From NCBI GenBank assembly GCA_025355875.1, contig JANXYV010000100.1:1-64000 (forward strand): 64,000 nt of DNA, in the 5' to 3' direction. Shown here piece after piece: positions 2,990 to 10,890 of this stretch. A model generated the notes under the pieces. The model was not told where the DNA came from and searched no databases. It worked only from the letters and a program-made list of their open reading frames with translations. This stretch comes from Prolixibacteraceae bacterium. GTDB lineage: Bacteria; Bacteroidota; Bacteroidia; Bacteroidales; Prolixibacteraceae. The stretch's first letter is position 1. Every line of letters begins with the position of its first letter. A program made the translations under genes and the position numbers.

Positions 2990-3338
2990 CTTTTTGTGGT
3001 TTTTTCCGGCGCCAGTGTGGATTGAAAAGTTGCTGATCGAATACCGGGCGGGTGGGGTTTGCGCGGCTATTGTACATAGCGTAATTTTATGACAGTCCAG
3101 CCGTTTTTCTGGTGTTCGGCTGGGGGATTTCTGTTATAGAATAGCGCGTTATTTATCAATCGCTTTGGGAGTTGAATTTTTTGGCACAAGCGAAACGGTG
3201 TAGGCGGTTGGAATGTAGCGTCTTTTTGCCTTATGGAAGATTGTTAATGTTGAAGTTGAGTAACTTCAATTTTGTAAAACAACGTTCACTTTTGTTACTA
3301 TTTTGTTACTCGCCACCCGACTAACCTTTGTAACTATG

Positions 3339-3413
3339 TGGGCTGTACTGGATTCGAACCAGTGACCCCTACCCTGTCAAGGTAATGCTCTAAACCAACT
3401 GAGCTAACAGCCC
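3339..3413 (-). tRNA. tRNA-Val (anticodon GAC)
   Basis: Read on the minus strand: 7-bp acceptor stem GGGCTGT/ACAGCCC, D stem GCTC/GAGC, anticodon stem TTACC/GGTAG with loop TTGACAG (anticodon GAC), T stem ACTGG/CCAGT with T loop TTCGAAT, discriminator A. CCA is not encoded. A partial copy of its 3' end lies at 199-222, making this gene the likely integration target of the adjacent island. Confidence 0.93.
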
Positions 3414-3523: not shown

Positions 3524-3540
3524 GGTTAATAATTGGTTAA
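3524..3540 (-). promoter_or_regulatory. Two GGTTAA boxes, 11-bp spacing, before the regulator gene
   Basis: GGTTAA at 3524-3529 and 3535-3540, starts exactly 11 bp apart. They overlap the probable promoter of the next gene (TTG at 3521, TAATTTG at 3538-3544). The reverse complement, TTAACC, recurs three times at 11-bp intervals before the cytochrome gene. Suggests binding by the adjacent winged-helix/BTAD regulator on its own promoter, by position perhaps as a repressor. Confidence 0.55.
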
Positions 3541-3552
3541 TTTGCTTTTTTA

Positions 3553-6144
3553 ATGGCAGAAATCTTAGTGCCTAATTTGTTTCAGATGAAGATCGTATAT
3601 CGTTTCATATTTTTTTTAGTCTGTTTGGGTTCTTCTGGTTTGGCAATTGCAGCCAAGACGAATGAAGATATCCTGATGAGGCAATACGATGAAACCATCT
3701 TTGTAATTTCAAATTTTTCCGGAGTCGACGCGAATCTCAATGAACCACGGACAGTTCAGGAGCTGCTTAATGAAAATATTAGCGGATTCAGGTTTTATCT
3801 TGAATGGGAAAAGCAGCAAAATCAGTTAATGATTAAAAAATCAGATGGTTCCTCGCTTTCTTTCCGGAAAACTATGCTCGAAATTAAATCGTATCTGGAC
3901 AACAATCCTGAAAAAGTCTTTACACTTTTTTTGGATTTCGGAACCAATGTGAATGAACTCAGTGATGTATTTCAAGAGCTTGGGATCAATCGGTACATTT
4001 ACACTTATGATGCGCAAGAAGGTTGGCCAACCTTGAAAAACATGATTGAAGATAACCGGCGGTTGGTTGTTTTTTCAATGCAGGAACACCGCAATAGTCC
4101 CGAATGGTTGCATTACATATGGAATCATGCAGTTGAACCCTATTTTTCAATCTGGGAGGCACCAGTTTTCAAAGGTGAATTTCTGAAAGGTGATCCAAAA
4201 AACAGTCTTCTGATCTATAATGACTATAACATTCCACGAAAATCTGAAGCTTCAAGAAGCATTAAATATGACTCGAATCAAAATCCGTACCTCATTGAAC
4301 ATGTAAAGAATACCTGGACCAATACTGGAAAAACGCCAAATTTCATCATGCTCGACCGGTATGAAAACTCGATTTTGAGCGTCCTTTCATACATTCGCGG
4401 ATTTAAAACGATCAAAGGTACAGTCACTTATAATACGCAGGTACTCGACTATGTAAACTGGGCTCAAACCGGAAGTCTTACAAGCGGCAAATATTGTTTC
4501 CCTGTTGGGCCTGGTGACAATATGGTTCTGACTCCTCAGAGTCCGGGATTTCGGTTTACACCTGTGTCCATCACCTTTAATGAGCCGAAGCAGAGCATCA
4601 TCCAGCATTTTGTTGCAACTTCACTTCAGATTACCGACAATCTGGAAGGCCATTATACCTTCGTTAAGGATGCTCATGATTACAGTATCAACGGATTTAA
4701 CGGGAAACCGCAAAACGTTCAGTTTGTCAGTGATTCTACGAGGGCTACAGTAGCAGTTTTTGGTGAAAACAGTTGTATTGTTCTGCCCGGTGCAGAAGAA
4801 TTTAAGATCAGGGATCATGATTTTTCGGTAGCTGCCTGGATAAAAATAAAGGAATTTTTACCGAACAAAAGGGATTATTGCGTCATTGGGACTAAAAATA
4901 ATTCGTATCAGCAAGGAATTCATCTGCTTATCAGGGATCAAAAACCTTATTTCGGGTTCTATAACAATGATCTGCAAGGAAAAACCCTGCTTGAAGCAGG
5001 AACCTGGTATCACCTGGTTTGGAGATACAATAAACTAAATGGAGAGCAGGCTATTTTTCTGAACGGAAAACTTGACAGTCGCTCTCTGGGACATCCGGCC
5101 TATAAAGGGCGCGACAGCCTTTATATAGGTGTCGCAGGCTTCAATTGGTCGTCGAACATGAATGGCGCCATCGATAATCTGAGCATTTGGTCGAGGGCGT
5201 TGGGTGAGAAGGAAATCTGGCAATTAAACAAGGAAGTAATTGAAATTGTACCGATCAAAAATATTTTTATCCTTTATCCGCTTCTATCGTGGTCTGGAGT
5301 TTTATTAATTGTCGCTGGAGGGATCGTCTTTTTTCTTGTGAGATTTAAACGAAGGATCCAAAAGCAGCCGTCAGTCGCGGAAAAGATCCGAAGTATTGAC
5401 CAGACCGTCGTGCTGAAACCCGAAGCCAATTACATACAATTGTTCGGAGATTTCAAGGTGCTTGACAAGAATGGAAATGAAATTACCAGCTTGTTTACTC
5501 CCAAACTGAAGCAATTGTTTCTGATCATCCTCTTGTATTCCAAACGAAATAAAAATGGCATTTCGACCCAGGAACTCACCGATATTCTGTGGCTAGGCCA
5601 TTCTTCCCAAAGTGCTAAAAACAGCCGTGGGGTTACCATTCGAAAACTTCGGCTGATTCTTGAGTCGCTTGATACGGTTCAGATTAATTTTCATGTTGAT
5701 CGGTGGTCGATGGCTTTTGGTGGCACAGTTTACTGCGACTATTTAGAATGCTTAAAACTACTGAAGCGTGAAAAAATTCATGATACCGATTTCAACCTGC
5801 ATTTCTACGACATTATTCAGGAAGGCGAACTTTTTAAAGGCGAATCCTATGATTGGCTGGATGATTTCAAAGGATTTATTGGGAACAACATTGTAGATAT
5901 TCTCCTGAAGTTTATAAGTGAGCTAACCATTGAGTACGACAATGAGCTGATACTGAAACTCACCGATCGGATTCTTGAAACTGATCCGGTCAATGACCAG
6001 GCTTTGACACATAAACTAAAAGCTTTGATCATTCAGAATAATTACAACCTTGCCAAATTTACTTTCGACCGTTTTTGCCTTCTCTATGAAGAGATGTACG
6101 GAGAGAAATTTTCAGGAAAATTTGAAGTATTGACCGCTTCCTGA
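3553..6144 (+). CDS. Membrane-bound regulator: PI-PLC-like, LamG, TM, winged helix, BTAD-like
   Basis: 863 codons from this ATG. Met-12 (3586) directly precedes a signal peptide (KIVYRFIFFLVCLGSSGLAIAA) and fits the promoter better, so translation may start there. Domains (numbering from 3553): PI-PLC-X-like fold about 40-290, with no histidine visible where the first catalytic one is expected, so probably a binding domain; LamG/concanavalin-type jelly roll about 365-555; one membrane helix about 571-596; cytosolic OmpR-type winged helix about 625-715; BTAD/TPR-like region about 725-860. The last two have the order found in SARP activators. The layout suggests a one-component receptor that senses a lipid or glycan outside and acts on DNA inside. 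Ligand unknown. Boxes at 3524-3540 and 6245-6272 are its candidate targets. Confidence 0.75.
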   Translation: MAEILVPNLFQMKIVYRFIFFLVCLGSSGLAIAAKTNEDILMRQYDETIFVISNFSGVDANLNEPRTVQELLNENISGFRFYLEWEKQQNQLMIKKSDGSSLSFRKTMLEIKSYLDNNPEKVFTLFLDFGTNVNELSDVFQELGINRYIYTYDAQEGWPTLKNMIEDNRRLVVFSMQEHRNSPEWLHYIWNHAVEPYFSIWEAPVFKGEFLKGDPKNSLLIYNDYNIPRKSEASRSIKYDSNQNPYLIEHVKNTWTNTGKTPNFIMLDRYENSILSVLSYIRGFKTIKGTVTYNTQVLDYVNWAQTGSLTSGKYCFPVGPGDNMVLTPQSPGFRFTPVSITFNEPKQSIIQHFVATSLQITDNLEGHYTFVKDAHDYSINGFNGKPQNVQFVSDSTRATVAVFGENSCIVLPGAEEFKIRDHDFSVAAWIKIKEFLPNKRDYCVIGTKNNSYQQGIHLLIRDQKPYFGFYNNDLQGKTLLEAGTWYHLVWRYNKLNGEQAIFLNGKLDSRSLGHPAYKGRDSLYIGVAGFNWSSNMNGAIDNLSIWSRALGEKEIWQLNKEVIEIVPIKNIFILYPLLSWSGVLLIVAGGIVFFLVRFKRRIQKQPSVAEKIRSIDQTVVLKPEANYIQLFGDFKVLDKNGNEITSLFTPKLKQLFLIILLYSKRNKNGISTQELTDILWLGHSSQSAKNSRGVTIRKLRLILESLDTVQINFHVDRWSMAFGGTVYCDYLECLKLLKREKIHDTDFNLHFYDIIQEGELFKGESYDWLDDFKGFIGNNIVDILLKFISELTIEYDNELILKLTDRILETDPVNDQALTHKLKALIIQNNYNLAKFTFDRFCLLYEEMYGEKFSGKFEVLTAS

Positions 6145-6244
6145 AAAACATGTTTTCTAACAGGGTTATTTGTTCTTCTGAATAGATTTTATTGCTGAGA
6201 ATCAGGTATTTTGATATTTGGAAAAGATTTGAATTTGTGAAATA

Positions 6245-6272
6245 TTAACCCAATATTAACCTTCCCTTAACC
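6245..6272 (+). promoter_or_regulatory. Three TTAACC boxes at 11-bp spacing
   Basis: TTAACC at 6245-6250, 6256-6261 and 6267-6272, one helical turn apart, ending 23 bp before the -33 element of the cytochrome-gene promoter: an activator position. SARP-type proteins are known to bind direct repeats with 11-bp periodicity, and the preceding gene carries the same winged-helix/BTAD domain order. The same hexamer, inverted, sits in the regulator's own promoter region. Confidence 0.6.
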
Positions 6273-6295
6273 TGCCTGTAAACTTCAACTAAAAC

Positions 6296-6322
6296 TTGGC
6301 TAACTGTACCGTATTAGATTTG
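6296..6322 (+). promoter_or_regulatory. Promoter of the cytochrome/SUMF1 gene
   Basis: TTG at 6296-6298 and a perfect -7 box TAGATTTG at 6315-6322. The 16-bp spacer is slightly short for the consensus, as might suit an activator-dependent promoter. Start of transcription expected near 6329, giving a leader of about 65 nt. Confidence 0.6.
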
Positions 6323-6392: not shown

Positions 6393-7916
6393 ATGAAGAT
6401 TGGGAATTCAATTCGCACGTTTTTCACAAGTATAAAGATAGTTTGGATAGTCATATTTGGACTGATTTTGGGATTGGCATTTATGTTCTTCGGAAACAAG
6501 GCCGTTCACTATACATCTACCGATGAGTATTGCGCCTCGTGCCATGTTCACCCGCACGCTGAACAAAGCTGGAAACTTTCCATACACTACGACAATAAGG
6601 CTGGAGTAATAGTCCATTGTGTAGACTGCCATCTTCCGCCTGAAGGGCATGGAATGCTGTTTGCAAAAGCGAAGCAAGGGGCGAAAGACGTTTACGGCAA
6701 GTTTTTCAAAGATTCGAGCGATTTTAAATGGGCTGCCAAACGTAAGCTCGAGATGGCAAAGAAATTTGTGTACGTCGAATCGTGTACCAAATGCCACCAA
6801 AACCTGTTCCCAAAAACACTGACTGTTGATGGGGAAAATGCCCACCTGAGTTTTCTGACCAGTAAATCTGAAGTGAGCTGTTTAAATTGCCACCTCGATG
6901 TGGGCCATTTCGATCCGAATAACAAACACGAGCACAACAAAAACTTTGGGGTCACAGCATCAGAAAGTACCCTGGTATATACTGAAGCTACTCCGGTAAC
7001 AAACTTTACCAGTTTTACTGAAAAAATTCCAGGTACCAGCGTTTCCTTTGATATGGTCGCCATTCCGGAAGGCCAGTTTGTGATGGGCAGCCCAAAGAAC
7101 GAAAGTTTGCGCAAACCAGACGAAGGACCACTTCATCCGGTAAAGCTGAGCCGGTTCTTTATAGCCAAAGTTGAAGTTAGTTGGGATGAATATCTTGAAT
7201 TCTTTAAGGCAACCTCATCGCAGGGTCGAAAGGAAATTGAAGAAAATGCGAATGTGGATGCCATTTCAGGCCCGACCCCGCCATGGGGAGCACCCGATCA
7301 GGGATGGGGAAAGGGACCGCGGCCGGCCATAACCATGACCTGGAAGTCGGCCAATGTCTATTGCAAGTGGTTGTCGAAAGTGACCGGGAAGAAATACAGG
7401 CTTCCAACCGAGGCAGAATGGGAGTATGCCGCTCGGGGAGGTACCAAAACGCCGTACTTCTTTCAGGGAGATGCAAAAAAATATACTTCTGAAGGATTCT
7501 TCAAAAAGATTCTTGGAGTAGATACTACAACAATTCAATCCTATGTGGCATACAAGGAAAATAGTCAGTCACAGACTTTCGAAACCAACGCAGTAAAAGG
7601 AAACCCGTTTGGCCTGAAAAACATGTTGGGAAATGTGTATGAATTCTGCTCCGATTTTTATTCACCAACTGCTTATCAGGTTGACAAAAAGGGAGCGGTG
7701 AATCCTAAGGGACCTAAAAAAGGACAGGAGCACGTCATCCGGGGAGGTTCGTTTAAAAGCGACGCAAAGGATGTCCGGTGCGCTGCCCGCGACTTTACCA
7801 AAACCAAAGCATGGTTGGTCACCGATCCTCAAATGCCGAAAAGCGTTTGGTGGTATTCTGATTGCATCGACATCGGGTTTCGGGTAGTTTGTGAAGTGGA
7901 TGAAAATATAAAATAG
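6393..7916 (+). CDS. Tetraheme NapC/NirT-like cytochrome c fused to SUMF1/FGE-like domain
   Basis: 507 aa. An N-terminal membrane anchor (about 16-34) is followed by four CXXCH heme sites at 47-51, 76-80, 131-135 and 163-167, as in NapC/NrfH quinol dehydrogenases that pass electrons to periplasmic enzymes. From about 218 to the end is a formylglycine-generating-enzyme/SUMF1-type domain (IPEGQFVMGS, RLPTEAEWEYAARGG, NMLGNVYEF, RGGSF). Between RGGSF and CAARD the paired active-site cysteines of true FGE are absent, so sulfatase activation is unlikely; related domains bind sugars or oxidise small molecules. It heads a run with two Tat-exported Gfo/Idh/MocA genes (12 and 120 nt gaps), suggesting periplasmic electron exchange with sugar oxidation or reduction (inference). 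Confidence 0.8.
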   Translation: MKIGNSIRTFFTSIKIVWIVIFGLILGLAFMFFGNKAVHYTSTDEYCASCHVHPHAEQSWKLSIHYDNKAGVIVHCVDCHLPPEGHGMLFAKAKQGAKDVYGKFFKDSSDFKWAAKRKLEMAKKFVYVESCTKCHQNLFPKTLTVDGENAHLSFLTSKSEVSCLNCHLDVGHFDPNNKHEHNKNFGVTASESTLVYTEATPVTNFTSFTEKIPGTSVSFDMVAIPEGQFVMGSPKNESLRKPDEGPLHPVKLSRFFIAKVEVSWDEYLEFFKATSSQGRKEIEENANVDAISGPTPPWGAPDQGWGKGPRPAITMTWKSANVYCKWLSKVTGKKYRLPTEAEWEYAARGGTKTPYFFQGDAKKYTSEGFFKKILGVDTTTIQSYVAYKENSQSQTFETNAVKGNPFGLKNMLGNVYEFCSDFYSPTAYQVDKKGAVNPKGPKKGQEHVIRGGSFKSDAKDVRCAARDFTKTKAWLVTDPQMPKSVWWYSDCIDIGFRVVCEVDENIK

Positions 7917-7928
7917 AAATCATTTCCT

Positions 7929-9281
7929 ATGGAAAATACGAACAAAAACGGCATTAACCGGAGAAAGTTTCTCGAATCGACTGCCTTTGCCGGCATCGGA
8001 ATATTAGGCGCCAGCGCTTTGATTTCGGGATGCAAGGATGTGAAAAATGCAAAAATCCTTGGTCTTCCTCCAATTCTGAAAGCAGCGCCCAAAGGCAAGA
8101 AGCTGCGTGCCGGACTGGTTGGTACCGGAAACCGTGGAACAGGAGCTGCCATGAACTTTATTAGTGCCGGGCCGGATATGCACATTGTTGCCCTCGCCGA
8201 TGTATTTGAGGATAAAATGAACGATTGCCGTGAACGGTTTGCCAAAATGAAAATGGAAATTCCGGCTGAAAACTGCTTCTCCGGATTTGACGGATACAAG
8301 AAACTGATGGCGCTGGCTGATGTGGATGTGGTCATTCTGGCCACCCCACCACAATTCAGACCCGAACATTTCAAGGAAGCTGTTCTGCAAAACAAACATG
8401 TATTCATGGAAAAACCGGTGGCCGTTGACCCGGTTGGAATCCGTTCGGTTATTGCCAGTGCGAAAAAAGCCCAGGCAATTGGACTGAATGTAGTAACCGG
8501 AACTCAGCGTCGTCACCAGCAAGATTACATTGAAACATATCAGCAGGTTGCCAATGGGGCCATCGGCAGACCCGTTTCGGCCAGGGCTTTTTGGAACCAG
8601 AACCATGTTTGGTTCCGTACCCGCGAAGAAGGTTGGGATGACATGACGTACATGATCCGGAACTGGAATAATTTTTGTTGGTTATGTGGAGATCATATTC
8701 TGGATACTCATGTTCACAATATCGATGTGATCAACTGGTTTTTGGGCCGTCAACCTGAAAGTGCCGTAGGTTACGGTGGCCGTGCCCGTCGTTTAACCGG
8801 CGATCAGTATGATTTTTTCAGCATCGATTTTGACTATGGCGATGGAGTTTTTTCGCATAGCATGTGCCGGCAGATCGACAATTGTGCCAATGGAACCGGC
8901 GAATTCATAATGGGAACGGAAGGATATACCAACTGTATCAATACCATTTGGAATATGGATGGCACGGTGAAATGGAAATTCAGTTATCCGAAAGATGAAA
9001 ACGGTAACGAAACCGATAAACTGAAGATTCCTCCGTATGTTCAGGAACACATGCATCTTGCCTATGCTATAAGGACCGGCGAATACGTGAACCAGGCCGA
9101 AACTACAGCTCTTTCTACGCTTACGGCAATCATGGCTCGCACAGCAGCCTACACCGGAAAAAAAATTACTTGGGAAGAAATCTATAAATCGGACATGGAC
9201 CTTGGTCCAAAGGAAATAAAATTTGGACCGGTCGGTATGCAGTTTGAAGTCCCGGTTCCGGGAACAGCACACAAAGCATAG
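7929..9281 (+). CDS. Gfo/Idh/MocA oxidoreductase, Tat lipoprotein
   Basis: 450 aa. Starts with a twin-arginine signal (NRRKFLE) ending in a lipobox (LISGC, Cys-35), so exported folded, with cofactor, and lipid-anchored. Rossmann NAD(P)-binding loop GTGNRG at 65-70; catalytic-type EKP at 161-163; C-terminal alpha/beta dimerisation domain. The family includes glucose-fructose oxidoreductase, inositol dehydrogenases and glycoside hydrolases using NAD as a fixed cofactor. Starts 12 nt after the cytochrome/SUMF1 gene, so surely cotranscribed. Substrate cannot be told from sequence; a sugar or sugar acid is likely. Confidence 0.88.
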   Translation: MENTNKNGINRRKFLESTAFAGIGILGASALISGCKDVKNAKILGLPPILKAAPKGKKLRAGLVGTGNRGTGAAMNFISAGPDMHIVALADVFEDKMNDCRERFAKMKMEIPAENCFSGFDGYKKLMALADVDVVILATPPQFRPEHFKEAVLQNKHVFMEKPVAVDPVGIRSVIASAKKAQAIGLNVVTGTQRRHQQDYIETYQQVANGAIGRPVSARAFWNQNHVWFRTREEGWDDMTYMIRNWNNFCWLCGDHILDTHVHNIDVINWFLGRQPESAVGYGGRARRLTGDQYDFFSIDFDYGDGVFSHSMCRQIDNCANGTGEFIMGTEGYTNCINTIWNMDGTVKWKFSYPKDENGNETDKLKIPPYVQEHMHLAYAIRTGEYVNQAETTALSTLTAIMARTAAYTGKKITWEEIYKSDMDLGPKEIKFGPVGMQFEVPVPGTAHKA

Positions 9282-10838: not shown

Positions 10839-10890
10839 TGGTACTTGCTCCGAAAACTGTATCTTTAAGCTATTAATTAACAGGTAAATC

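Follow-up and report, generated by a model that had tools for sequence, protein, structure and literature searches.

We analyzed a 64,000-nucleotide stretch of environmental bacterial DNA (here, the window) in which a gene encoding a transmembrane regulator (positions 3586 to 6144, plus strand) is followed on the same strand by a gene for a NapC/NirT cytochrome fused to an FGE/SUMF1-type domain (6393 to 7916; open reading frame [ORF] list and Pfam). Twelve bases after the cytochrome-SUMF1 gene lies a gene for a GFO/IDH/MocA oxidoreductase (7929 to 9281, plus strand; ORF list, Pfam, and neighbor comparison), which is likely part of the same operon. A tRNA-Val gene lies on the minus strand at 3338 to 3413, and a Fic-domain protein is encoded upstream of it at 792 to 2312. 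The ORF of the regulator is listed from 3553; because a conserved signal anchor begins at the ATG at 3586, this codon is probably the start. A first-pass annotation of this DNA had placed five hexamers around the regulator gene, and all five stand where it put them: GGTTAA at 3524 and 3535, and TTAACC at 6245, 6256, and 6267.

An alignment-based structure model of the whole regulator (mean pLDDT, 83.6) predicts, in this order, an N-terminal helix, an alpha/beta region, a LamG region, a helix at residues 576 to 600, and a C-terminal domain. The putative extracytoplasmic part contains a barrel-like domain (3688 to 4422, plus strand; Pfam E value of 6e-6 and structure model) that weakly resembles the MTC6/PLC-type barrel, with an MTC6 match of 26.4 bits that falls just under the cutoff of 27; the comparison with PLC is otherwise a matter of general background. 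None of the four His residues between residues 40 and 300 of the window's regulator is kept across all 28 aligned sequences, which would fit a sensor rather than an enzyme. The only clear Pfam match in the regulator is a LamG-type (Laminin_G_3) domain (4777 to 5217, plus strand; E value of 3e-19). When the whole regulator was used in a fold search, the 50 matches listed were LamG-type jelly rolls, including clostridial binding domains, a shared fold that is uninformative on function. The helix at residues 576 to 600 (5278 to 5352, plus strand) is hydrophobic by eye and is the predicted transmembrane segment.

The C-terminal domain (residues 626 to 863 of 863; 5428 to 6141, plus strand) was modeled alone with a pLDDT of 92.4. 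Its predicted fold is that of an OmpR-type winged helix with an all-helical BTA domain behind it, and a candidate recognition helix lies at residues 685 to 703 (5605 to 5661, plus strand; model and alignment). In the fold search, only six PDB matches had E values of 0.001 or below, and all of them are the SARPs AfsR or EmbR (8hvr, 8k60, 2fez, and 2ff4), with TM-scores of 0.63 to 0.67 by query length; the seventh PDB match has an E value of only 0.1. The winged-helix plus BTAD-like type first assigned to this domain thus agrees with the predicted fold. Sequence identity to the AfsR and EmbR structures is 12 to 14%, Pfam Trans_reg_C and BTAD do not match the C-terminal domain of the window (among relatives they reach E values of 0.058 and 0.06, each in 1 of 16 members), and PDB sequence searches with C-terminal and N-terminal profiles gave no meaningful match. 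Because of this outcome of the Pfam sequence test and the position of the domain in the protein, we call the regulator SARP-like rather than classing it among the SARPs. The domain is single copy in this genome; of 197 further genomes sampled from the phylum, 6 gave a match, which was weak in 3.

A search of 140 genomes of the family returned some match to the regulator in 93, part of them to single domains only. Among 16 related loci in a named collection, 10 bear the name Prolixibacteraceae and the rest bear names of other Bacteroidota. The set compared here comprises 40 regulator loci, from 83% down to 28% identity, and the cytochrome-SUMF1 gene adjoins the regulator in 35 of them. It is colinear with the regulator in L056 to L079 (at least 38% identity) and divergent in 12 loci from clades of about 30% identity; in 11 of these 12 the MocA oxidoreductase gene follows the cytochrome gene, and the short piece of L082 shows none. 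Three loci (L061, L080, and L081) are interrupted by contig ends, and in two more (L085 and L092) the regulator is present and no cytochrome gene was found within the piece examined. In L092, the regulator gene is divergent to that of a MocA homolog. These five pieces hold no cytochrome start and were left out of the array scan, which therefore covered the window and 35 relatives (36 loci).

The region 5' of the cytochrome gene was first described as having three TTAACC boxes at 11-bp spacing. These are present, but they are the first part of an array of six NTAANN boxes that keeps its 11-bp register from 6245 to 6305 (plus strand) into the promoter: TTAACC at 6245 to 6250, 6256 to 6261, and 6267 to 6272 (sequence and array scan), GTAAAC at 6278 to 6283, CTAAAA at 6289 to 6294, and CTAACT at 6300 to 6305 (array scan and aligned rows). 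When the 330 bp upstream of the cytochrome gene were scanned for six NTAANN boxes, the array was found at all 36 regulator-linked loci; 15 of them reach the maximum score of 18, seven score 17, and fourteen score 15 to 16, with poorer arrays in L078 and L079 (score of 15). Among all spacings between 7 and 20 bp, 11 bp was strictly best in 35 of the 36 loci (mean score of 16.92, versus at most 13.0 at other spacings). The proposed tie between regulator and cytochrome gene thus withstood this check, the boxes being conserved at the orthologous loci scanned. In the 15 rows whose register is unbroken, none of the 18 TAA columns varies and the remaining columns average 1.13 bits; the outermost box is displaced by one base in seven further aligned rows.

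Nine base pairs separate the end of box 6 from the putative -7 element of the cytochrome promoter, TAGATTTG (6315 to 6322, plus strand), assigned from the Bacteroidota promoter consensus, which passages of PMC7366714 give as TAnnTTTG at -7 and TTTG near -33. The TA of a TAnnTTTG-like element stands 15 bp after box 6 in all 22 aligned rows, which were anchored on box 6 mostly via a pattern that already requires a -7-like element 8 to 10 bp on. That pattern pairs box and element in 33 of the 36 loci; L065 and L070 lie beyond its range, yet are among the 22 rows with this spacing, and L086 is the only locus without such a pairing. No TTTG is kept near -33 in the aligned cytochrome promoters, so the promoter looks weak without help. 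According to the text excerpted from PMC10936776, SARPs recognize direct repeats spaced by 11 or 22 bp, the 3' repeat lying 8 bp from the -10 element, and two AfsR protomers occupy the -35 element side by side, as a dimer that touches sigma. With box 6 ending 9 bp from the -7 element and no TTTG near -33, the simplest reading is an activator that replaces the -33 contact.

From the predicted fold and from the computed array, including how it is spaced, how well it is conserved, and how it co-occurs with the regulator, we consider it likely that a transmembrane SARP-like activator acts on the six-box array and drives the cytochrome-SUMF1 and MocA genes. The regulator would be a one-component activator that senses through the extracytoplasmic barrel and LamG domain, crosses the membrane with one helix, and has its SARP-fold domain in the cytosol. 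In response to a signal from outside the inner membrane, several regulator copies would bind side by side on the six boxes, along one face of the DNA; the boxes themselves suggest a row of protomers. The copy bound at box 6, 9 bp before the -7 element, would take the place of the -33 contact, and polymerase recruitment in the manner of AfsR would then switch on the cytochrome-SUMF1 gene and the downstream MocA oxidoreductase gene. That the regulator instead represses the cytochrome gene, with boxes 5 and 6 covering the -33 region and blocking polymerase, seems to us rather unlikely: the -33 contacts would indeed fall at these two boxes, but SARPs activate from just such a position, as far as the consulted portion of PMC10936776 describes, and the promoter, with no TTTG kept near -33, looks weak on its own.

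For control, 20 cytochrome loci were examined that either come from genomes lacking a full match to the regulator or represent cytochrome paralogs. The array is absent from all 12 fully readable cytochrome loci without an adjacent regulator (L119 and L122 to L132), some of which have short flanks (e.g., L127); L119 belongs to the window's own genus. Three of the four paralogs examined (L133 to L135) have no array, and the fourth, L136, scores 16 in the array scan (equaled by 0 of 60 shuffles), but its boxes are weak and lie 215 bp from the start codon, with no regulator known nearby. The remaining four loci (L117, L118, L120, and L121) have the array, and no regulator was detected in the part of the locus sequence that could be read; regulator absence cannot be claimed for such partial loci, which decide nothing. 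They are the cases that would be expected if the array were a genuine cytochrome operator bound by another, unlinked protein, the regulator being linked for a different reason. We judge this unlikely, given the partial sequence of these loci, the contrast between the regulator-linked loci, all 36 of which have the array, and the 12 readable loci lacking a regulator, none of which has it, and the fit of 11-bp repeats ending close to a -7 element with the SARP fold.

The boxes at the regulator's own promoter present a less uniform picture. The pair that was first noted there exists (3524 to 3540), but it is reversed, reading as TTAACC-N5-TTAACC on the minus strand, and it is confined to the genus. 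By eye, 12 of the 16 genus loci that could be read retain it (the exceptions being L063, L064, L069, and L081), compared with none of 10 outgroup colinear loci; L068, with unread bases there, was excluded from this count. A weight-matrix scan recovered it in the window and in 11 relatives, identical to those counted by eye. The pair may overlap the start of the regulator itself, in which case it would limit regulator synthesis; because it is reversed, genus-confined, and missing in 4 of 16 loci, we infer autoregulation only with reserve. The same pair could conceivably serve the minus-strand tRNA-Val gene, toward which it is oriented as the array is toward the cytochrome gene, yet the -7-like element of the tRNA gene (TATTTTTG) lies about 100 bp further on and, by eye, the minus strand shows no such element 9 bp beyond the boxes, which makes this quite improbable.

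Counts of the box pair across the genome were proposed at the outset as an estimate of chance. The exact TTAACC-N5-TTAACC pair occurs four times in the 5,180,306-base draft genome, above chance, and three of the four occurrences are at this locus, so that such 11-bp pairs are not frequent in unrelated promoters; exact TTAACC pairs with gaps from 0 to 30 pooled amount to 28, less than one per gap. The fourth pair (L004, 1501 to 1517) lies directly 5' of a reading frame that we take, by recognition, to resemble a superoxide dismutase; it has no further box and is probably due to chance. If one mismatch is permitted, the genome has 35 matches, fewer than the 87 of a backwards-read control, and within this single genome exact boxes alone stand out; the comparative evidence is the stronger case. 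With a weight matrix built from 15 relatives, the window being left out, the window's sites score 22.2, versus 10.6 for the best two-box site outside the array, and no comparable site was found in the 64-kb window beyond the array and the regulator-promoter pair. Short TAA cores are common in AT-rich DNA, and L136 reaches its score of 16 with no regulator known nearby, but the notion that the repeats reflect chance or the composition of AT-rich promoters has next to no probability and is refuted as far as computation goes, because 100 dinucleotide shuffles never reach the array score for 31 of the 36 loci, reach it once for four loci, and four times for one, and because of the spacing control and the invariant TAA cores.

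A further box, GGGTTA in inverted orientation (GGGTTATT here, GGGTTAAT in most relatives; 6163 to 6168, minus strand; scan and alignment), lies 82 bp before box 1. In 17 of 24 colinear loci, it stands 82 bp upstream of the array's first position; in L072 to L077, the outermost array box is itself displaced by one base. Elsewhere, it lies at 71 to 81 bp (L069 to L071) or at 76 bp (L078) and 112 bp (L079), where it may be due to chance; the scan found none in L060, in which the box is mutated, and in L065 it falls outside the scan window and was found at the same distance by alignment. The DNA between inverted box and array is only 35 to 54% identical to that of the window in the 12 relatives compared; it is thus the distance that is kept, not the sequence, which hints at DNA looping. 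Between the two elements, a short motif of approximately cTnAAnATCA (window 6195 to 6204) is kept in genus relatives and is perhaps the site of a second protein.

In the divergent clades, the array is still 5' of the cytochrome gene in unchanged orientation, its boxes read TTAAGA or TTAATA with one 12-bp step, and the predicted recognition helix of the regulators differs. Residue 697 is Arg in all 14 colinear TTAACC-clade sequences, Asn in all 12 of the divergent-clade type, and Ser in L078 and L079. Because few evolutionary events underlie this pattern, the covariation of box and helix is a lead and not proof. We tentatively propose, as a possibility rather than an expectation, that the membrane-tethered SARP-fold protein forms a cooperative row of six on the 11-bp boxes and also grips the inverted box at a fixed 82 bp, so that a sensed signal would pin the promoter to the inner membrane in a looped, all-or-none complex, and that box sequence and residue 697 coevolve as a readable specificity code, Arg being paired with TTAACC and Asn or Ser being paired with TTAAGA/TTAATA-like boxes.

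Some observations reach beyond the locus. A wider set of 20 loci (L097 to L116) encodes the same C-terminal domain with other ectodomains, and several of the neighboring genes resemble SusC/SusD by length and N terminus (by eye). Generalization of the 11-bp boxes to this set was rejected: (i) in a lag test, 11 bp came first in 7 of 28 flanking promoters versus 20 of 143 others, and (ii) a test for four boxes plus a -7 element gave no separation between the regulator's own promoter (12.15; n = 20), adjacent promoters (11.98; n = 31), and other promoters (11.30; n = 49), with wrong-spacing controls at 12.60, 12.48, and 12.21. By eye, 11-bp boxes are seen in the flanks of L100/L110, L102/L103, and L108, which keeps this set as a lead. 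In L110, the flank downstream of the regulator is strongly periodic at 22 bp (matches at 32 of 44 positions for that lag), probably reflecting a tandem repeat. Separately, a further exact TTAACC-N5-TTAACC pair occurs in L062 (2124, minus strand), L065 (9150), L066 (8807), and L067 (8876). It stands just after a TAnCTTTA-like element and precedes a gene for a glycosyltransferase that lies beyond the cytochrome cluster on its downstream side; in the window this pair is degenerate, near 10868, and was not counted.

SARPs, known as antibiotic activators in Streptomyces, bind their repeats and contact sigma region 4. The regulator shares with SARPs (AfsR of Streptomyces and EmbR of Mycobacterium) the predicted fold of its DNA-binding part and the 11-bp direct repeats, the last of which lies close upstream of the -10 or -7 element (9 bp here; 8 bp in SARPs, according to passages of PMC10936776). 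It differs in domain order, with an extracytoplasmic sensor and a membrane helix preceding a C-terminal SARP-fold part, whereas the SARP domain is N-terminal in SARPs, according to the same article, and in having six boxes rather than two, in addition to the low identity and the lack of a significant Pfam match given above. The SusR-like regulators of Bacteroides, as the consulted passages of PMC3878776 describe them, are likewise membrane proteins with a periplasmic sensor, a C-terminal DNA-binding part (predicted here), and direct-repeat sites, but their two direct repeats are 67 or 77 bp apart, in contrast to six at 11 bp. The additional box at 82 bp is inverted, which also sets it apart from the direct repeats of SusR-like sites. 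As in ToxR and CadC, at least in the literature excerpts consulted, one protein would sense outside and bind DNA inside with a winged helix. In ToxR and CadC, the DNA-binding domain is N-terminal of the membrane helix and is not known to include a BTA part; here, in contrast, the winged helix follows the membrane helix in the model. No report of a membrane-anchored SARP was found in the open-access literature searched, as judged from listings and the openings of abstracts.

If the SARP-like activator reading is true, membrane-bound sensors of Bacteroidota would also use SARP-type promoter activation, and the system would come with a base-pair-level prediction of its operator, a target operon, and a specificity residue that can be tested. 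It would also provide a first regulatory handle on the cytochrome-SUMF1/MocA operon.
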